In this document: one piece after another, positions 18,762-28,890 of the stretch
How positions within the stretch are numbered: position 1 is the first letter of the stretch
Layout: the number at the start of each line of letters is the position of its first letter
NCBI RefSeq assembly: GCF_947493565.1
Contig: NZ_CANLRG010000004.1
Coordinates: 186,001-250,000 of the forward strand
DNA length: 64,000 nt
DNA from: an uncultured Lutibacter sp.
GTDB lineage: Bacteria > Bacteroidota > Bacteroidia > Flavobacteriales > Flavobacteriaceae
Direction of reading: 5' to 3'
The notes under the pieces: generated by a model
Database searches by the model: none
What the model was told of the DNA's origin: nothing
What the model saw: only the letters and a program-made list of their open reading frames with translations
Made by a program: the position numbers and the translations under genes

Positions 18762-20024
18762 TTAAATTAAAAATTGAAAAAGTTCTGGCTTTTCATTTAA
18801 GTACTCTCCTAAAAAACCTTTTTGTCTCATTCTTGCTACCAAAGGCTCAAAGTCTTCTTTTTTATCCAATTCAATTCCAACAACTGCAGGTCCTTTATCT
18901 CTATTATGTTTTTTGGTATATTCAAAATAGGCAATATCATCATTTGGACCTAAAACTTCCACAACAAACTCTTTTAAAGCTCCTGCTCTTTGAGGAAACT
19001 TTATAATAAAGTAATGCTTTAATCCTTCATAAAATAAAGCTCGTTCTTTCATTTCTTCCATTCTGGTAATATCGTTATTACCTCCACTAACAACACAAAC
19101 TACAGTTTTCCCTTTAATTTGTTCTTTATAGTTTTCCAGAGCAGCTATGGAAAGTGCTCCAGCAGGTTCAACCACCAAAGCATTTTCATTGTACACTTTT
19201 AATATGGTAGAACAAATAAGTCCTTCACAAATTGTATAGGTATCTGTAAGCAGTTCTTTACAAAATCCAAAGGTGAAGTCTCCCATTCTTTTTACGGCAG
19301 CCCCATCAACAAACTTATCAATTTCATCTAATGTTGTATTTACTCCATTTTTGATTGATGTTGTTAATGAAGGTGCTCCTTTTGGTTCTACTCCAATTAA
19401 TTGAGTAGATGGGCTTAATGCTTTAAAAACATTAGATACTCCTGAGGCTAAACCACCACCTCCAACAGGCATAAACACATAATCTATCGGATTTTTACTA
19501 TCATTTAAAATTTCTAATCCAACTGTCCCTTGTCCTGCAATCACATCTAAATCATCAAAAGGATGCACAAAAGTACTCGAATTTTGTTTACAAAATTCCG
19601 AAGCTGCTTTTTGACTATCATCAAAACTATCACCATACAAACGAACATCTACAAAAGATTCTCCAAACATTTTTACTTGATCAATTTTTTGATGAGGAGT
19701 TGTAACTGGCATAAATATAGTTCCGTGAACTTGTAATTTTTGACAAGCATATGCTACTCCTTGTGCATGGTTTCCCGCACTTGCGCATACAATACCATTT
19801 TTTAATTCTTTTTCAGATAAACCTTGAATTTTATTATATGCACCTCTAATTTTATAAGAACGTACAACTTGCAAGTCTTCTCTTTTAAAATAAATATTGG
19901 CTTGGTAACGCTCAGAAAAATTTTTCATAAATACCAAAGGAGTATGTTGAACCACTCCTTTGATATTTTGTTGTGCTTTGTATATTTTTTCTAATGAAAT
20001 GCTATTTTTTATAGAGGTATTCAT
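18762..20024 (-). CDS. ilvA: Threonine ammonia-lyase (threonine deaminase)
   Basis: IlvA deaminates threonine to 2-oxobutanoate, the first committed step to isoleucine. The 420-residue fold II PLP enzyme shows the PLP lysine in SYKIRGA, the SAGNHAQGVA loop and the glycine-rich MPVGGGGLASG. After the catalytic domain there is one ACT-like regulatory segment (from about residue 330, HYFIIKFPQRAGALKEF). The frame extends to a TTG at 20054 overlapping ilvC; I chose the ATG at 20024. It is the last gene of the ilv operon. Confidence 0.95.
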   Translation of the reverse strand: MNTSIKNSISLEKIYKAQQNIKGVVQHTPLVFMKNFSERYQANIYFKREDLQVVRSYKIRGAYNKIQGLSEKELKNGIVCASAGNHAQGVAYACQKLQVHGTIFMPVTTPHQKIDQVKMFGESFVDVRLYGDSFDDSQKAASEFCKQNSSTFVHPFDDLDVIAGQGTVGLEILNDSKNPIDYVFMPVGGGGLASGVSNVFKALSPSTQLIGVEPKGAPSLTTSIKNGVNTTLDEIDKFVDGAAVKRMGDFTFGFCKELLTDTYTICEGLICSTILKVYNENALVVEPAGALSIAALENYKEQIKGKTVVCVVSGGNNDITRMEEMKERALFYEGLKHYFIIKFPQRAGALKEFVVEVLGPNDDIAYFEYTKKHNRDKGPAVVGIELDKKEDFEPLVARMRQKGFLGEYLNEKPELFQFLI

Positions 20025-20046
20025 TAATAGCTTTATCTTTAAAGAA

Positions 20047-21519
20047 TTAAACAATTTTGGTCATTGCAGTCATAGAAGCTCTTAGATACTCTCCTATTTC
20101 TTCTACAGGGTGATTTCTAATAGCATCATTCACTTCAATTAACTCTTTATTATCTACACCATTTGAACCTTCGTTAAAAGGTTTTCCAATTAAATTACTT
20201 GATACCTTTTTAACATAATCTGCAATTAAAGGCTTACAAGCGTGGTCAAATAAATAACATCCGTATTCCGCTGTATCTGAAATAACTCTATTCATTTCAA
20301 ACAATTTTTTACGAGCAATTGTATTTGCAATTAATGGTGTTTCATGCAACGATTCATAATAAGCAGATTCTTCAATAATTCCTGATTCAGTCATTGATTC
20401 AAAAGCTAATTCTACCCCTGCTTTAACCATAGCAACCATAAGAACTCCATTATCAAAATATTCTTGCTCTGAAATTTCAACTTCAGAAGCCACCGTTTTT
20501 TCAAAAGCAGTTTCTCCTGTTTCAGCTCTCCATTTCAGTAAATTTACATCATCATTTGCCCAGTCTTCCATCATTGTTTTTGAAAAGTAACCGCTCATAA
20601 TATCATCCATATGTTTTTGAAATAATGGACGCATGATCTCTTTTAACTCTTCTGAAACTTTAAACGCAGCAATTTTAGCTGGATTAGACAATCTATCCAT
20701 CATATTCGTAATTCCACCATGTTTTAAAGCCTCAGTAATTGTTTCCCAACCATACTGAATTAATTTTGAAGCATACCCCGCATCAACACCTTCATCCAAC
20801 ATTTTATCAAAACAAAGAATTGAACCTGTTTGTAATAATCCACATAAAATGGTTTGTTCTCCCATTAAATCTGATTTTACCTCAGCCACAAATGAAGATT
20901 CCAATACACCTGCTCTATCTCCTCCAGTTGCTACCGCATAAGCTTTTGCATAATCCCAACCTTTCCCTTCAGGGTCATTTTCAGGGTGAACAGCAATCAG
21001 CGTTGGTACTCCAAAGCCTCTTTTATACTCTTCTCTAACTTCTGAGCCAGGGCATTTTGGAGCAACCATAATTACAGTAATATCATTGCGAATTTGCATT
21101 CCTTCTTCAACAATATTAAATCCGTGCGAGTAAGATAAAGTAGCTCCTTTTTTCATTAAAGGCATTACTGTATTTACAACGTTTGTATGTTGTTTATCAG
21201 GTGTTAAATTCAATACTAAATCTGCTGCTGGAATTAGCTCTTCATACGTTCCTACCTTAAAGTTATTTTGCGTTGCATTTTGGTAGGAAGGACGTTTTTC
21301 AGAAATTGCTTGCGATCGTAGTGCATATGAAATATCTAAACCTGAATCTCTCATGTTTAGACCTTGGTTTAAACCTTGTGCTCCGCATCCCACAATTACT
21401 ATTTTTTTTCCTTTTAAAGCGGTAACACCTTCACTAAACTCAGATGATTCCATAAATCTACATCTTCCTAATTGATCTAATTTATCTCTTAATGAAAGTG
21501 TATTAAAATAATTTACCAT
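20047..21519 (-). CDS. ilvC: Ketol-acid reductoisomerase, class II
   Basis: IlvC isomerises and reduces acetolactate and acetohydroxybutyrate. At 490 residues it is the long class II form, like the E. coli enzyme, with a duplicated C-terminal knotted domain. The NADPH-binding motif [18 protein letters not shown] is near residue 38, followed by [10 protein letters not shown], whose basic residues fit NADPH preference. It lies between ilvN and ilvA. Confidence 0.97.
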
Positions 21520-21540: not shown

Positions 21541-22062
21541 TTAATTAATTTCTTGTAATAATTCTGAAATTGCCATTTTAGGTCGTGTAATTGCTATTCG
21601 ACCCGAGCGTACAAATTGTAACAAGCCAAAAGGTCGTAGCTTTTCGTACATATTGTCAATATCTTCTTTTAACCCTGAGGCTTCAATTACAAAATAACGC
21701 TCTGTAATTGCTATGATATGCGCTCTTCTAAATTTTAATTTATCTTGAATTTTTTCGTTATATAAATGTTCTGATGAAATTTTAAATAAGGCGATTTCAT
21801 GATAAATAATTTCATCTTCTGTATGATAAAAAGCCCTAATTACTTCTATTTGTTTTTCAAGCTGACCAACCACTTTACTTATTTGTGCTTTTGTAACAAT
21901 AACAACAAACGTAAATCTGTGTACATGGTCAATTTCTGACCTTGAAACTGTCATACTTTCAATATTGATATGACGTTTTAAAAAGATGGCCGAAAGCCTA
22001 TTTAATATTCCTATATTGTTTTCAGTATATACCGAAACTGTAAATTTTTGATTTTCTTCCAT
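21541..22062 (-). CDS. ilvN: Acetolactate synthase small (regulatory) subunit
   Basis: The 173-residue protein begins with an ACT domain (about 7-80, with VYTENNIGILNRLSAIFLKR) and has the C-terminal small-subunit domain. It activates IlvB and mediates feedback by branched-chain amino acids. It is 2 nt after ilvB. The symbol ilvH is also used for this length class. Confidence 0.95.
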   Translation of the reverse strand: MEENQKFTVSVYTENNIGILNRLSAIFLKRHINIESMTVSRSEIDHVHRFTFVVIVTKAQISKVVGQLEKQIEVIRAFYHTEDEIIYHEIALFKISSEHLYNEKIQDKLKFRRAHIIAITERYFVIEASGLKEDIDNMYEKLRPFGLLQFVRSGRIAITRPKMAISELLQEIN

Positions 22063-22064
22063 AA

Positions 22065-23798
22065 TTAACTTAATCTTATATCTGAAACACTTGCTCCTGT
22101 TGGTATCATTGGAAAAACATTATCTTCCTTTTCAATTACTACTTCTAAAAAATAAGAGCTTTTTGAGGCAATCATGGTTTCAATTGCTCCCGCCAACTCT
22201 TTTCGATCAGAAACTCTATTGGCTTCAATACCGTAACCTTCAGCAATTTTCACGAAGTCTGGATTTTTCATTACTGTTGATGCGTAACGTTTGTCAAAAA
22301 ACAACTCTTGCCATTGACGAACCATTCCTAAAAAACTATTATTTAAAACTACTATTTTAACTGCTGCTTCTGTTTGAAGAATTGTACCTAATTCTTGAAT
22401 GGTCATTTGGTAACCTCCATCTCCAATTATTGCTATTACTTCTCTATTTGGCACACCCATTTTTGCGCCAATTGCAGCTGGTAATGCAAATCCCATAGTT
22501 CCCAATCCTCCAGAAGTTACATTACTTCTTGTTTTAATAAAATCGGCATAACGACAAGCAAACATTTGATGTTGTCCAACATCAGAAACAATGACAGCAT
22601 CACCATTGGTTTCTTTATTAATTTGTCCTAAAACTTCTCCCATAGTTAACCCTACTTTAGTTGGAGTTAACTGATCATTTATGACTACTTCGCATTCCTT
22701 TTGATACAATTTATGAAATTCTCCAAGCCACTCCGTATGGCTAGAGCTATTTACATATTCCATAATTTTAGACAGAGTCTCTTTCACATTCCCTAAAACA
22801 GCCACATCTGTTTTCACATTTTTATCTACTTCGGCTGGATCAATTTCAAAGTGTATCACTTTTGCTTGTTTTGCATAAGTATTTAAATTACCTGTAACAC
22901 GATCATCAAAACGCATTCCAATAGCAATTAATACATCACATTCGTTAGTTAACACATTTGGTGCATAATTTCCATGCATTCCAACCATTCCAACATTTAA
23001 TGGATGTTTTGTTTCTAAAGCTGAAAGACCTAACACTGTAGAAGCTGAAGGGATTCCTGTTTTTTCTATAAAATTTTTAAATTCTTGTTCCGCTTCACCA
23101 ATAATAACTCCTTGCCCCCAAACTATAAATGGTTTTTTTGCAGCATTAATTAATGCTGCAGCTTCTTTTACTTTAGGTAGTTCCATAGATGGAACGGCCT
23201 TGTAACTTCTTATTTTTTCACATTTTTTATATGAAAATTCCAATTCTCCAAATTGTGCATCTTTCGTAATATCAACTAAAACTGGACCTGGTCTACCTGA
23301 TTTTGCTATGTAAAATGCTTTTGCTATAATTTCAGGAATTTCACTAGCTTTAGTAATTTGGTAATTCCATTTAGTAACTGGAGTGGATATTCCTACAATA
23401 TCTGTTTCTTGAAAAGCATCGGAACCTAATAAATGTGAAGCTACCTGTCCTGTAATACAAACCATAGGTGTAGAGTCTATTTGAGCATCTGCTATTCCAG
23501 TTACTAAATTAGTTGCACCAGGTCCAGAGGTTGCAAACACAATTCCTGGTTTACCTGTAACACGAGCAAATCCTTGTGCCGCATGCGTTGCACCTTGTTC
23601 ATGACGAGTTAATACATGATGAAGTTTATCTTGATATTTATACAATTCATCATAAACAGGCATAATTGCCCCTCCTGGATAACCGTAAACTAAATCTACT
23701 CCTTCTTCCAACAAACATTTAATAACAGCTTCAGCTCCTGTAACTTTTTTTGATTTTGAAGTTTTTTGTTCTTGAACTTCTTTTTTTAATGTTTCCAT
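22065..23798 (-). CDS. ilvB: Acetolactate synthase large subunit
   Basis: IlvB is a ThDP enzyme that condenses pyruvate with pyruvate or 2-oxobutanoate. The 577-residue protein contains the ThDP glutamate in TRHEQGA, the Mg/ThDP motif GDGGYQM to NNSF, and the usual PYR, central and PP domains. A polar N-terminal tail of about 20 residues precedes the first domain. It is 4 nt after ilvD. Confidence 0.97.
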   Translation of the reverse strand: METLKKEVQEQKTSKSKKVTGAEAVIKCLLEEGVDLVYGYPGGAIMPVYDELYKYQDKLHHVLTRHEQGATHAAQGFARVTGKPGIVFATSGPGATNLVTGIADAQIDSTPMVCITGQVASHLLGSDAFQETDIVGISTPVTKWNYQITKASEIPEIIAKAFYIAKSGRPGPVLVDITKDAQFGELEFSYKKCEKIRSYKAVPSMELPKVKEAAALINAAKKPFIVWGQGVIIGEAEQEFKNFIEKTGIPSASTVLGLSALETKHPLNVGMVGMHGNYAPNVLTNECDVLIAIGMRFDDRVTGNLNTYAKQAKVIHFEIDPAEVDKNVKTDVAVLGNVKETLSKIMEYVNSSSHTEWLGEFHKLYQKECEVVINDQLTPTKVGLTMGEVLGQINKETNGDAVIVSDVGQHQMFACRYADFIKTRSNVTSGGLGTMGFALPAAIGAKMGVPNREVIAIIGDGGYQMTIQELGTILQTEAAVKIVVLNNSFLGMVRQWQELFFDKRYASTVMKNPDFVKIAEGYGIEANRVSDRKELAGAIETMIASKSSYFLEVVIEKEDNVFPMIPTGASVSDIRLS

Positions 23799-23802
23799 AG
23801 GT

Positions 23803-25485
23803 TTAAAATTTATCCGTTACACAACCTTCTGAAGCTGAAGAAACGGTTTTAGCATATTTATATAGTATTCCTTTTTTATGTTTTAATTCTGGAGCATTCC
23901 AATTAGCTTTTCTTTCTATTAATTCTGCTTCAGTTAATTTTACGTTTATTGTTTTACTTGTTGCATCAATTACAATAACATCTCCATCTTTAATCAATGC
24001 AATATTCCCACCAGATTGTGCTTCAGGAGTAATATGCCCTACTACAAACCCATGAGTCCCTCCTGAAAATCGTCCATCTGTAATTAAGGCAACAGACTTA
24101 CCTAATCCTGCTCCCATAATCATAGAAGTAGGTTTTAACATCTCAGGCATTCCAGGTCCACCTTTTGGTCCTACATACCTAATTACAACAACATCTCCTT
24201 TTGAAACTTTTCCAGCCCCTATTCCAGTATTAGCCTCATCCTCACTATCAAAAACAACTGCTTTTCCTTCAAATAAATTACCTTCTTTACCGCTAATTTT
24301 TGCAACGGCACCTTCAATTGCTAGATTTCCAAATAAAATTTGCAAATTTCCTGAAGGTTTAAGAGCATTTTCTGTTGAATGAATTACTTGTTGATCTTCT
24401 TCAAAAGATAGTGGTTCAACATCTGCTAAGTTTTCGGCCAAAGTTTTTCCTGTAACAGTTAGACAGTCTCCATGCAAATAACCTTGATCCAATAAATATT
24501 TCATAACTGCTGGAGTTCCGCCAACCCCATGCACATCTTCCATTAAATATTCTCCACTAGGTTTTAGGTCAGCAATTAAAGGAGTTCTATCACTCACTCT
24601 TTGAAAATCTTCTAAAGTAAACTCAATTCCAGCAGCATGAGCTATCGCTAAATAATGTAGTACTGCATTGGTTGATCCACCTAAAGCATTTACTAGCGCT
24701 ACAGCATTTTCTAAAGATTTTTTAGTGATAATATCTAGTGGTTTGATATCTTTTTCTAATAAATTTTTAATGGCAGTAGCTATACGAGCACTTTCATTTT
24801 CTTTATAGGGATTTTCAGCAGGAATTGATGAGTTGTAAGGTAATGCAAACCCTAAGGCCTCAATAGATGAAGCCATGGTATTTGCTGTATACATTCCACC
24901 ACAGGCTCCTGCCCCTGGTATGGCATTTTTAATTATTTCTTTATATTCTTCTTCTGAAATATTTCCCGCTATTTTTTGACCCAAAGCTTCAAATGCCGAA
25001 ACTATATTTAACTTTTTTCCTTTATAATTTCCAGAAGCTATGGTGCCACCATAAACCATTAATGATGGCCTGTTTAAACGAAGCATTGCCATAATAGCTC
25101 CTGGCATATTTTTATCACAGCCTACTACAGTTACCAAACCATCATAGCTTTGTGCATTCATGACTACTTCTATAGAGTCGGCTATAATATCTCTTGATGG
25201 TAATGAATAATTCATTCCAGAGGTACCCATAGAAATTCCATCACTTACTCCTATCGTATTAAAAACTAGACCAACTTCATTATTTTTATTAACCTCTTCC
25301 TTAATTTTACTAGCCAAACCATTCAAATGCATATTGCAAGGATTTCCATCATATCCAGTACTTGCAATTCCAATTTGAGGCTTTTTCATATCTGCATCAG
25401 TCAAACCAACACCATACAGCATAGCTTGTGCTGCTGGCTGTGTAGGATCTTGTGTAACTCTTTTACTGTACTTATTTAATTGCAT
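23803..25485 (-). CDS. ilvD: Dihydroxy-acid dehydratase
   Basis: IlvD is an Fe-S dehydratase acting at the third step of the valine and isoleucine routes. The 560-residue sequence has the cluster cysteines in [16 protein letters not shown] and [12 protein letters not shown], and the C-terminal [15 protein letters not shown] motif ([13 protein letters not shown]). It is the first structural gene of the ilv operon, behind the tandem attenuator. Confidence 0.97.
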
Positions 25486-25694
25486 TAATTTTATTCTTTT
25501 TTATATTTTATTAAATTATTCTAAAAACAACCTAATTTTTACTATCTATTCTGTAATAAGCAGCAAATTTAATTTAGGTAATTTTTATATTCATTTTTCT
25601 TTTAAAAAATTTACAATAGTCATTTACTCATAATTACACATACCCTATTGTTTTACTGATAGTTAACGTAATTTATTTTACAATGATTATAGAA
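25486..25694 (-). promoter_or_regulatory. Spacer between second ilv attenuator and ilvD
   Basis: These 209 AT-rich bases hold no further terminator hairpin or leader ORF rich in branched-chain codons. A lone consensus -7 element TAAATTTG lies on the minus strand near 25563-25570 without a clear -33 partner; it might give a low constitutive level of ilvD independent of attenuation. Confidence 0.3.
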
Positions 25695-25729
25695 TAAAAA
25701 AACCTGTATCGTTTAGTGATACAGGTTTT
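25695..25729 (-). terminator. Second ilv leader terminator
   Basis: The minus strand forms a 12-bp stem AAAACCTGTATC/GATACAGGTTTT (25718-25729 and 25699-25710) with a 7-base loop and a T tract to 25695. It follows the second leader peptide by 24 nt and precedes ilvD. Confidence 0.85.
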
Positions 25730-25753
25730 AATTTTATTTATTAACAACATGCA

Positions 25754-25819
25754 TCAACTTATTAAACAAATAATAATGACTTGAATTAAAATAATAATGC
25801 TTGTTCCTTTTTTATTCAT
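25754..25819 (-). CDS. Second ilv leader peptide, 21 residues
   Basis: ATG at 25817-25819 and TGA at 25754-25756 delimit a 21-residue ORF. It has eight Ile codons, one Val and two Leu, including the run SIIILIQVIII. The ATG lies only 11 nt after the T tract of the first terminator, so it can be made only by read-through of the first attenuator. The stop codon overlaps the strand TGATGCA (25750-25756), which can pair with TGTATCA in the terminator arm (25717-25723) with one G-U pair. This is a ribosome-dependent antiterminator. Confidence 0.85.
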   Translation of the reverse strand: MNKKGTSIIILIQVIIICLIS

Positions 25820-25830
25820 AAACTAAACTT

Positions 25831-25865
25831 AAAAAAAAACCTTCCTAAAAAGTTAGGAAGGTTTT
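25831..25865 (-). terminator. First ilv leader terminator
   Basis: The minus strand forms a 13-bp stem AAAACCTTCCTAA/TTAGGAAGGTTTT (25853-25865 and 25836-25848) with a 4-base loop and a run of nine T (25831-25839). It starts 27 nt after the stop codon of the first leader peptide. Confidence 0.88.
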
Positions 25866-25892
25866 ATAATTTTATTAACTACAATAACAATC

Positions 25893-25958
25893 CTAACGTT
25901 TCTGTGGAATAATCACAGAAATTGAGATAGAAATGATATTGATAATGACTTGTTTCAT
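25893..25958 (-). CDS. ilvL: First ilv leader peptide, 21 residues
   Basis: ATG at 25956-25958 and TAG at 25893-25895 delimit 21 residues with eight Ile and two Val codons, for example VIINIISISISVII. The ORF is the first feature of the ilv transcript. The stop codon sits inside GTTAGGA (25891-25897), which is the exact complement of TCCTAAC in the 5' arm of the first terminator (25852-25858), a 7-bp antiterminator. A ribosome at the stop would cover it; one stalled at Ile codons would not. The use of the symbol is by analogy with E. coli. Confidence 0.88.
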   Translation of the reverse strand: MKQVIINIISISISVIIPQKR

Positions 25959-26018
25959 TTTATTGATGCAAATATGTAATTTTTATTTTATAAAAAAAAT
26001 ATTTTCTCTTATAAATTC
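25959..26018 (-). promoter_or_regulatory. ilv operon promoter region
   Basis: Between the hypothetical gene and the first leader ORF the minus strand has CATATTTG, one mismatch from TAnnTTTG, about 13 nt before the ATG. I see no good TTG at the -33 position. The promoter must lie here unless transcripts run on from the upstream gene. Confidence 0.45.
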
Positions 26019-27563
26019 TTACTTCAATAGCTTTTGGGCTTTTTCTTGAATAATTTCTTCAACGGTTTTATGCTGAATTTTACTCTCTAACCAAGACAAT
26101 ATGTCTAAATATAAAAAAGCTCTTTTTTCATAAGGATGCTCTTCAAACATCTTTAATTCACTATGCAAATTTATAAATGCCTTTTTTAAATCTTGAGGAT
26201 ATGTATTGCTTAAATTTTTTAAAAACGATATCATTTTGTGTTGTACTTCGTGTAAATCATTCATTTTTATTAAAAACTTATAGGTTGATACAATTAGCTT
26301 TTCAATATTGTAATCCATTCCAGCATCGTAATGTGCTACTAAATTTAATACTCTAGAAAAACATAATAAATCTTCTCGCATTTTCAAATCTCTGTTATTT
26401 ATAATTTTTTCTAAATAATAAATGCACTCTTCATTTTTACCTGCGCCAAAATACATACACGCTATTTTATAATAAAATACCATAATATGATGCGCATCAA
26501 TTTTAGTTTCAAAATCTGAAATGCTATCCAATAAGTTTGAAACGAAACTTAAACCTTCTGAAAATTTTCCTTCTAAAAAATATAAGTTAAGTTTATTTTG
26601 ATTGAAGTACAAAAAAGCCAATGTTTGTGTGTTTTCATTTAATGAAATAAGCTGATTTTCAATATCGTAATTTAAATTTTGAAGTACTTCATTAAATTTT
26701 GTTCTGTGTTTTATTAAATACAGTGATTCTAATAAATAATTAACTCCCTTTAAATAAAAAACTGGATTTTGAATTTTCATTTCTGGTTTCTCCATAAATA
26801 AATCAACCCATTTTTGAGAGTATTTATAGCTTAACAAAAAGTCTTGCAATATAAAACTGTGCCATAAATAAGCTTTATATAAAAACAATTTTTCTTTAAA
26901 ACCTAAATCTGAAAGTTTAAATTTTGGCAATCTTTTTTCAAAATAAGCATGTACTGCTGTAGAATCTTCATCACTTTTAACATACCCTTCTTTTAGCAAT
27001 AAGCTGTATAATTGAAGTGATAAATTTGAAAGTTTACTTAACCTAACATTCTTTAAACTAAGACTTTTTGCTTGTTCAGAAAGTTCATCGGCTCTGTTAT
27101 TCATACTTCTAGTGATGTATTGAGACTCAATTACCTTTTCAAACTCCACAATTTCATATGCTAAATTATTTTCATCATTACTTAAAGCCAATTCCTTAGC
27201 TTTATCTAAAATTTTCAAACTCTGCTTATACAATCCTTTATTATATAATATCGCAGCAAAATCAAATTGTTCTCTAATTTGAGATCTTACATTTTGATGT
27301 ACAGGGTTAAAACGTAAGCTAACTAAAATTTGTTTATACAAATGAGCTTTAGTATTGGAAATTTGCTGTTTTTTAATATTTGTTTTTTTTAAAATTAATT
27401 CATCATCATAAGTTAAAACCTTATCTAACAAATTAAATAAAGACATAAAATTGGCTTCAGAATTCCCTCCTAATCTTCCCACATAAAGTTTAAACTGTCT
27501 TTTTTCAGATTTTGAAAGCGACTTAACCAACGAAAAAAGTGCATCTTTTTGCTCAATAGCCAT
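26019..27563 (-). CDS. Large conserved-looking protein of unknown function, helical
   Basis: The 514-residue protein is not one I can name. It has no signal peptide or membrane segment and is rich in Leu, Lys, Glu and Asn, in a pattern of amphipathic helices that suggests TPR-like or HEAT-like repeats. The N-terminus MAIEQKDALFSLVKSLSKSEKRQF is basic and helical. It stands alone, divergent from leuA, with its 3' end just upstream of the ilv leader. The position between two branched-chain operons may be chance; no function is assigned. Confidence 0.8.
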   Translation of the reverse strand: MAIEQKDALFSLVKSLSKSEKRQFKLYVGRLGGNSEANFMSLFNLLDKVLTYDDELILKKTNIKKQQISNTKAHLYKQILVSLRFNPVHQNVRSQIREQFDFAAILYNKGLYKQSLKILDKAKELALSNDENNLAYEIVEFEKVIESQYITRSMNNRADELSEQAKSLSLKNVRLSKLSNLSLQLYSLLLKEGYVKSDEDSTAVHAYFEKRLPKFKLSDLGFKEKLFLYKAYLWHSFILQDFLLSYKYSQKWVDLFMEKPEMKIQNPVFYLKGVNYLLESLYLIKHRTKFNEVLQNLNYDIENQLISLNENTQTLAFLYFNQNKLNLYFLEGKFSEGLSFVSNLLDSISDFETKIDAHHIMVFYYKIACMYFGAGKNEECIYYLEKIINNRDLKMREDLLCFSRVLNLVAHYDAGMDYNIEKLIVSTYKFLIKMNDLHEVQHKMISFLKNLSNTYPQDLKKAFINLHSELKMFEEHPYEKRAFLYLDILSWLESKIQHKTVEEIIQEKAQKLLK

Positions 27564-27675
27564 TGTAACTAATTTATTTTTATCTTATTGAATTTTAAGT
27601 ATTTATAAAATTCATTTTTTGTTTGAATATAGTAAACTCATAATTTAATAAAAATTTACTAACAGCATATACTCC

Positions 27676-27683
27676 TATTTTTG
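27676..27683 (+). promoter_or_regulatory. -7 element of the leu operon promoter
   Basis: TATTTTTG matches TAnnTTTG and ends 31 nt before the leuA ATG at 27715. No TTG at suitable distance is seen, and no leader ORF or terminator lies between it and leuA. Confidence 0.55.
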
Positions 27684-27714
27684 ACGTACCAAATGTGATA
27701 AAAAAAAATCAGAA

Positions 27715-28890
27715 ATGAGTAAAAACAAGGTTCAAATTTTTGATACAACCTTAAGAGATGGCGAACAAGTGCCTGGTTGTAAGTTAAATACTGAACAAAA
27801 ATTAGTGATTGCGGAAAGACTTGATCTTTTAGGTGTTGATGTAATTGAAGCTGGGTTTCCAATTTCAAGTCCTGGTGATTTTAATTCAGTAGAAGAAATT
27901 TCAAAATTAATAAAAAATGCAACTGTTTGCGGCCTCACACGTGCTAACAAAAAAGATATTGAAGTAGCTGCTGATGCGCTCAAACTAGCCAGAAGACCTA
28001 GAATTCATACAGGTATTGGAACTTCTGATTCTCATATAATTCATAAATTCAATTCAACACAAGAAAAAATAATAGAACGTGCTTATGAAGCTGTTGCCTA
28101 TGCAAAAAAATTTGTAGAAGATGTTGAATTTTATGCTGAAGATGCTGGGAGAACCGATAATGAGTATTTAGCTCGTGTTTTAGAACAAGTAATTAAAGCT
28201 GGTGCCACTGTTTTAAATATTCCTGATACAACAGGCTATTGTTTACCTGATGAATATGGTGCTAAAATTAAATACTTGAAAGAAAATGTTAAAGGAATTG
28301 ACAAAGTAATTCTTTCATGCCATTGTCATAACGATTTAGGTTTGGCAACAGCTAACGCCATTGCTGGTGTACAAAATGGAGCTAGGCAAATTGAATGTAC
28401 TATTAATGGAATTGGAGAACGTGCTGGAAATACTTCTTTAGAAGAAGTTGTAATGATTTTAAAACAACATCCATACTTAAATTTAGATACTAGTATAAAT
28501 ACCAAATTGCTGTACAATACCAGTAAACTTGTTCAAGATAGCATGGGAATGATTGTTCAACCAAATAAAGCTATTGTTGGAGAAAATGCTTTTGCACACA
28601 GCTCTGGAATACATCAAGATGGTGTAATTAAAAATCGTGAAACGTATGAAATAATTGACCCAGCTGATGTTGGAGTTACTGAATCTTCTATAGTTTTAAC
28701 AGCCAGAAGTGGAAGAGCGGCATTAGCATACCGCGCTAAAAATGTAGGTTATAACTTAACTAAAATTGAACTAGATGACGTGTATCCACAATTTTTAAAA
28801 TTTGCAGATCACCATAAAGAAGTTAATGATGAAGATATTCATCATTTAATGGAGTTAAACCACATTTCACAAACAAGTATCCACATTTAA
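27715..28890 (+). CDS. leuA: 2-isopropylmalate synthase, short form without regulatory domain
   Basis: LeuA condenses 2-oxoisovalerate with acetyl-CoA. The 391-residue protein has the [12 protein letters not shown] metal-site motif at the N-terminus, the HCHNDLGLA metal histidines and GIGERAGN. It ends after the catalytic barrel and linker subdomains; the C-terminal leucine-binding domain of the 520-residue E. coli enzyme is missing. Leucine feedback at this enzyme is therefore doubtful. An alternative is a related HMGL-family condensing enzyme, but the leuCDB neighbours support LeuA. Confidence 0.93.

Follow-up and report, generated by a model that had tools for sequence, protein, structure and literature searches.

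Ribosome-mediated attenuators are known from the trp, his and ilv operons of E. coli, and to our knowledge the textbook leaders of amino-acid operons hold one attenuator unit each. The leader of the ilv operon in an uncultured Lutibacter sp. resembles these E. coli leaders in that the biosynthetic genes are preceded by a short ORF with many codons for the regulated amino acid and by a predicted antiterminator and intrinsic terminator, but differs from them in comprising two complete units. The statement of a first-pass annotation of this DNA that classical attenuators are single was too strong, as the accessible text on Salmonella mgtCBR describes two short ORFs in one leader, each within an attenuator (PMC3641672). 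According to the same accessible text, mgtM and mgtP respond to ATP and proline, and intrinsic terminators are not recognised in the mgtCBR leader (PMC3641672), whereas both Lutibacter peptides are Ile-rich and each comes with a predicted intrinsic terminator. Of the described cases that we found, mgtCBR is the nearest. Two terminators also follow each other in the metE leader of Bacillus clausii, which carries tandem riboswitches (as cited in the accessible part of PMC3641672); the sensors there are riboswitch aptamers for two ligands, whereas those of the Lutibacter leader would be translating ribosomes. Within the same family as Lutibacter, leader-peptide attenuation has been inferred before amino-acid operons of Flavobacterium psychrophilum (PMC9723704), and within the same phylum, leader-like sORFs have been noted in Bacteroides 5′ UTRs (PMC7366714), the accessible text of each source making no mention of tandem units. 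A sensitivity model of attenuation treats a single leader and considers how many of its codons are regulatory and what fraction they make up (accessible part of PMC1183508). A literature search over titles and abstracts, with most subscription journals outside its scope, returned mgtCBR, erm leaders and two transcriptome papers, and no serial pair of two terminators for the same amino acid.

The window, i.e., the whole stretch of 64,000 nucleotides that was analysed, carries on its minus strand a peptide-terminator-peptide-terminator arrangement within 25958-25695, 5′ of ilvD-ilvB-ilvN-ilvC-ilvA (Table 1). The coordinates, lengths and Ile counts given for it by the first-pass annotation were all correct, as was the 11-nt gap from the first T run to the second ATG (25819). 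The five downstream genes all exceeded the curated NCBIfam cut-offs, with a narrow pass of the small-subunit gene on one of its two models. The gene at 26019-27563 on the same strand, between the ilv and leu genes, scored 108.5 bits with the NCBIfam model BT_2802_fam, far under the 550-bit cut-off.

Table 1. Coordinates of the leader elements and operon genes in the window, in the order of transcription.
Feature	Position	Strand	Description
P1 (putative promoter)	25969..25976	-	CATATTTG, -7-like box with 5/6 TAnnTTTG letters; predicted start ~25964, ~6 nt before peptide A
Leader peptide A	25893..25958	-	MKQVIINIISISISVIIPQKR*, 21 aa, 8 Ile codons
Segment 1 of A (predicted protector)	25928..25946	-	predicted pairing with 25878-25895 (minimum-energy fold, no ribosome)
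Antiterminator core of A (predicted)	25891..25897	-	GTTAGGA, includes UAG stop; partner TCCTAAC at 25852-25858
Terminator A (predicted)	25836..25865	-	13-bp stem; T run to 25831 (consensus scan)
Leader peptide B	25754..25819	-	MNKKGTSIIILIQVIIICLIS*, 21 aa, 8 Ile codons, 2 Leu
Segment 1 of B (predicted protector)	25795..25808	-	pairs with stop-codon region (minimum-energy fold, no ribosome)
Antiterminator of B (predicted)	25747..25755	-	GATGCATGT, begins within UGA stop; partner ACCTGTATC at 25718-25726, one mismatch
Terminator B (predicted)	25699..25729	-	CCTGTATC...GATACAGG, then T run (consensus scan)
P2 (putative promoter)	25564..25571	-	TAAATTTG, exact TAnnTTTG between terminator B and ilvD; predicted start ~25559, 74 nt before ilvD
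ilvD, dihydroxy-acid dehydratase	23803..25485	-	NCBIfam model
ilvB, acetolactate synthase large subunit	22065..23798	-	NCBIfam model
Acetolactate synthase small subunit (ilvN/ilvH)	21541..22062	-	NCBIfam model
ilvC, ketol-acid reductoisomerase	20047..21519	-	NCBIfam model
ilvA, threonine ammonia-lyase	18762..20054	-	NCBIfam model

An intrinsic terminator is predicted between each of the two Ile-rich ORFs and the operon, of the type CCUUCC...GGAAGG in unit A and of the type CCUGUAUC...GAUACAGG in unit B. The unit detector recovered exactly these two Ile-rich leader-plus-terminator units from both strands of the window, and 40 strands of 64 kb simulated with a first-order Markov model yielded none. 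The consensus scan gave four terminator-like sites in 24000-28000, compared with 1.4 expected from shuffles, and the four are the two leader hairpins, each detected on both strands. Searches with the Rfam 15 covariance models at gathering scores left the leader without a match and gave only two tRNAs in the window, and a T-box or riboswitch leader was set aside on this basis. The descent of A and B from a single unit was also set aside; by eye, both contain an AUGRUAU-like element and the codon motif GUCAUU. Each unit is predicted to comprise the full set of classical attenuator elements, with a protector in the peptide codons, an antiterminator at the stop codon and a terminator, which agrees with the earlier reading of the leader as two leader-peptide attenuators, each now supplied with its own predicted antiterminator.

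For the 24 tandem loci, the chance of pairing between the antiterminator and the terminator 5′ arm before the 3′ arm is made was computed per ribosome position. The results showed that, while the leading edge of the ribosome lay between 27 and 3 nt short of the last stop-codon base, this chance averaged 0.81-0.84 for A and 0.80-0.87 for B over the 24 pairs, against 0.35-0.44 and 0.38-0.47 when the stop-to-terminator segment was shuffled. The 24-pair means were 0.45 (A) and 0.50 (B) at +3, and 0.02 and 0.10 at +12, where the shuffled segments gave 0.29 and 0.35; without a ribosome they were 0.48 (A) and 0.38 (B). The window's own units did not drop in this way, reaching 0.66 and 0.84 without a ribosome compared with 0.66 and 0.87 when stalled; in the partial minimum-energy folds of these units, segment 1 nonetheless pairs with segment 2. 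Full-length minimum-energy folds of the window units favoured the terminator in B whichever ribosome mask was applied, and in A with all masks except 42, 45 and 48 nt. Any switching must therefore arise from the sequence in which the RNA segments are made, which is also the case for other attenuators. If a stalled ribosome shields some 14 nt beyond its A site, all eight Ile codons of A and seven of the eight of B in the window would hold the ribosome where read-through is predicted, and termination is predicted to be favoured once it sits on the stop codon. The computed competition of the antiterminator for the 5′ arm, with its dependence on ribosome position, draws on the 24 tandem pairs (22 of them for the duplex energies) and on pairing counts in 46 B units, unit A being the less well supported of the two.

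The pairing was compared with that of shuffled sequences, with all counts made by scripts. The duplex energy of the A antiterminator ranked at or below 0.05 against shuffles in only 16 of 22 A units (0.050 for that of the window), and the B antiterminator did so in 19 of 22 tandem B units and 16 of 22 B-only units. Of the eight arm positions, the B antiterminator matches seven in 38 of the 46 B units and six in the other eight, while about 11% of shuffled segments reach at least seven pairs; it begins within the stop codon in 29/46, and the best windows of shuffled segments overlap the stop in 37%. Where the B antiterminator departs from GATACAG, the pair is kept in 39 of 53 cases compared with 13.7 expected, and departures in the 3′ arm keep it in 12 of 16 compared with 5.0 expected; the antiterminator search takes the best-pairing window and so favours pairing, a step shared by the duplex and arm-position shuffles and not by the expectations of 13.7 and 5.0. 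Variants of the 5′ arm are rare (four variant cells, two of them retaining both partners). The B antiterminator pairs with its own arm better than with that of A in 22/22, and the A antiterminator prefers its own arm in 20/22, the cross-pairing of A not being weak (mean −7.2 vs −9.8 kcal/mol). Units A and B employ different pairing codes. A constraint was also found in the codons of the peptides. The Val codon GTC makes up 7 of 336 Val codons in 12 genes of the window, compared with 25 of 52 in the A leaders and 32 of 37 in the B leaders, and 11 of these 25 and 27 of these 32 stand within GTCATT. Synonymous recoding weakened the pairing between the stop-codon region and the coding region in 24/24 A units and 23/24 B units. 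Taken together, the GTC bias and the recoding effect suggested that leader codons are selected for RNA pairing besides sensing, and the codon constraint supports a protector segment that would mask the antiterminator.

Based on these results, we consider it likely that one transcript from P1 runs through two ribosome-mediated attenuators in turn, gating ilvDBNCA. The transcript would begin just 5′ of peptide A and meet attenuator A before attenuator B. In each unit, segment 1, made of peptide codons, could mask segment 2, which lies at the stop codon. Stalling on the Ile codons would place the ribosome over segment 1, so that segment 2 is free to capture the 5′ arm of the terminator, giving antitermination; a ribosome reaching the stop codon would cover segment 2 and let the terminator form. 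An RNA polymerase that initiated at P1 would have to pass both terminators before ilvDBNCA, and the two read-through probabilities would multiply in the cell. From this we infer a low leak with ample isoleucine, a larger range with scarce isoleucine and a sharper response. P2 may contribute a basal transcript free of attenuators.

The distribution of the two units was analysed in Lutibacter and in the family. Among 30 tallied Lutibacter ilvD leaders, 11 hold A and B, 17 hold a single A-type unit, and two (L082 and L090, by reading) hold an intact A followed by a decayed B remnant; unit A is present in all 30, and the decayed units imply that loss of B occurred. The tally is without L016 (195 nt upstream), L037 (an upstream of a different kind) and L075 (no unit found), and includes L005, L006 and L027 as tandem by reading, the B unit of L006 having a GTG start and a hairpin under the detector threshold. 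The first-pass annotation had named relatives that keep ilvD and lose both ORFs as evidence against the attenuators. Within the genus, 30 of the 31 readable leaders retain at least unit A, the exception being L075, but outside it there are many loci without a detected unit (93 of 276 classified loci in all, duplicates and short upstream stretches counted). Across the Flavobacteriaceae, 31 genomes from 15 genera have the A-then-B pair, namely 11 Lutibacter genomes and 20 from 14 other genera, a count that rests on looser detection and additional fetched loci beyond the strict B pattern, and no classified locus has B preceding A. Recent duplication within Lutibacter was rejected, because the B hairpin and the order also occur in the 14 other genera. 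Between the A T run and the B ATG, 17 of the 24 pairs have a gap of 16-23 nt, and the remainder have gaps of 30, 42, 42, 82, 92, 159 and 183 nt. The recurrence of the same ordered pair in other flavobacterial genera suggested that two-stage amino-acid sensing has been kept and is not a one-off. This spread over 15 genera, and the presence of two distinct terminator/antiterminator codes in a fixed order, had been missed by the first-pass annotation.

Of the 397 genomes of the family, 46 matched the strict B pattern, spread over 33 of 237 genera, and the reversed control gave no match. In 40 of these 46 genomes, the B hairpin lies before ilvD or about 1.1 kb upstream, heading the same gene group, and unit A is found within 183 nt upstream of B in 18 of the 40 and not in the other 22; in the remaining six, the hairpin is located elsewhere. 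B-like hairpins (CCTGTATC...GATACAGG plus T run) away from ilv genes were seen at L202, L203, L211, L212, L224 and L225 and are probably plain terminators. The next ORF is ilvE-like, by eye, in five genera (g13, g53, g115, g152 and g165), and in one g133 genome the pair also lies about 1.1 kb upstream of ilvD. At L236 (G226, one of the 22 genomes without a nearby A), B stands before ilvD and is preceded by a stretch of short repeats, with an A-like unit some 0.8 kb beyond; an inserted sequence may have divided a pair here. A tree built from 116 ilvD proteins requires 15 changes of the tandem label, at least 10 of the changes being forced by well-supported branches, and these counts draw no distinction between gain and loss. 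The tree left out loci labelled '0', ilvD fragments up to about 370 residues, rows below 60% identity and distant or short loci; the fragments include the ilvE-type loci L213-L216, L219-L221 and L234. Across the order, the strict tandem pattern matched 4 of 296 genomes, i.e., the window, G106 of the same family, and G452 and G502 (2 of 246 other-family genomes), the last three having no Ile-rich leader by eye; its sensitivity is limited, as it missed G357, which has the pair, and its reversed control matched two genomes.

Whether the two units share a transcript depends on where transcription starts. In the accessible text of PMC9723704, the promoter box sits at −12 to −5 (PMC9723704). In the 22 nt preceding A, 23 of the 24 pairs carry a box with at least five of the six TAnnTTTG letters, and in the 22 nt preceding B none of the 24 does. 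These box positions favour a single promoter, so the serial action proposed earlier is likely on the sequence evidence, and the two attenuators probably stand on a single transcript. An arrangement in parallel, in which a separate promoter within unit A drives B and two transcripts carry one attenuator each, would gain from the 5-of-6 promoter-like box that the looser 40-nt upstream window contains in 7 of 22 B units, and from the wide A-B gaps (82-183 nt) of four of the 24 pairs; against this contrast between the boxes of A and B, and with most gaps being 16-23 nt, it is very improbable. P2 poses a different question. The first-pass annotation had overlooked it, and it could bypass both attenuators and would then yield attenuator-free transcripts. 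Downstream of terminator B, 28 of 30 Lutibacter loci carry a TAnnTTTG box ahead of ilvD, 27 of these boxes lying 84-86 nt from the gene; a conserved block with two TTGTAAA-containing stretches precedes the box. Outside Lutibacter, 44 of 95 loci (with some genomes counted twice) have such a box past their final terminator, compared with 16% in shuffles. In the window, the Lutibacter-conserved block spans 25610-25690 (minus strand), with ATAATCATTGTAAAA and a second TATTGTAAA stretch, a possible operator followed by a second promoter. If P2 were dominant, most ilvDBNCA transcripts would start past both attenuators, and the pair would tune a minor P1 transcript or yield small RNAs. We regard this as unlikely, since conserved attenuators with an RNA-level codon constraint need P1 transcripts to matter and P2 is putative. 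If P2 is active, the serial gate would govern only part of the transcripts, and the whole control may weaken.

The number of regulating units and the nature of the hairpins were also considered. A leader with a single regulating unit, next to a relic or a plain terminator, would suit the relatives that hold A alone or B alone, as well as the decay of B in the two Lutibacter leaders described above, but the predicted switch and the codon constraint extend to both units in the 24 tandem pairs, which makes this reading improbable. The co-directional gene upstream ends 60 nt before peptide A, as would be expected if the hairpins were ordinary terminators of that gene with chance ORFs between them; considering that the simulated strands yielded no unit and that peptides, order and pairing are conserved across genera, we give this explanation next to no credence. 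The serial attenuators on the P1 transcript are the preferred reading.

With respect to the amino acids that the units may sense, the first-pass annotation had noted that the second peptide adds Leu codons. This holds in Lutibacter, where the Leu count of B exceeds that of A in 10 of 11 pairs and is lower in none, but not outside the genus, where the mean is 1.0 for A and 0.53 for B over 15 pairs. The suggestion that the units sense different mixtures is weakly supported, as the Leu excess of B is confined to Lutibacter. At L241 and L242 (G414 and G221), a lone B before ilvD encodes a Val/Leu-rich peptide (MDKNPNINNVLLVVCLGG and MDIFPSLNNVLVVVRLGG) and not an Ile-rich one, as if retuned. A broader proposal, to which we give about even credence, is that an old two-stage attenuator of Flavobacteriaceae, with ordered codes, A first, and multiplied read-through, has a B stage retunable to other branched-chain residues and has repeatedly lost either stage.

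The nearly invariant 5′ arm appears to serve two partners, the antiterminator and the 3′ arm, which drift by pair-preserving changes. Such drift would be a useful signature for unannotated attenuators, Rfam being without a matching model here. With close relatives that carry only A, only B or the two together, the natural serial pair makes it possible to examine what a second stage for the same signal gains, be it a lower leak, a larger range or a steeper response. If the two-stage reading is true, the Lutibacter leader would represent a natural serial gate, in which two ribosome-sensing terminators respond to the same signal.
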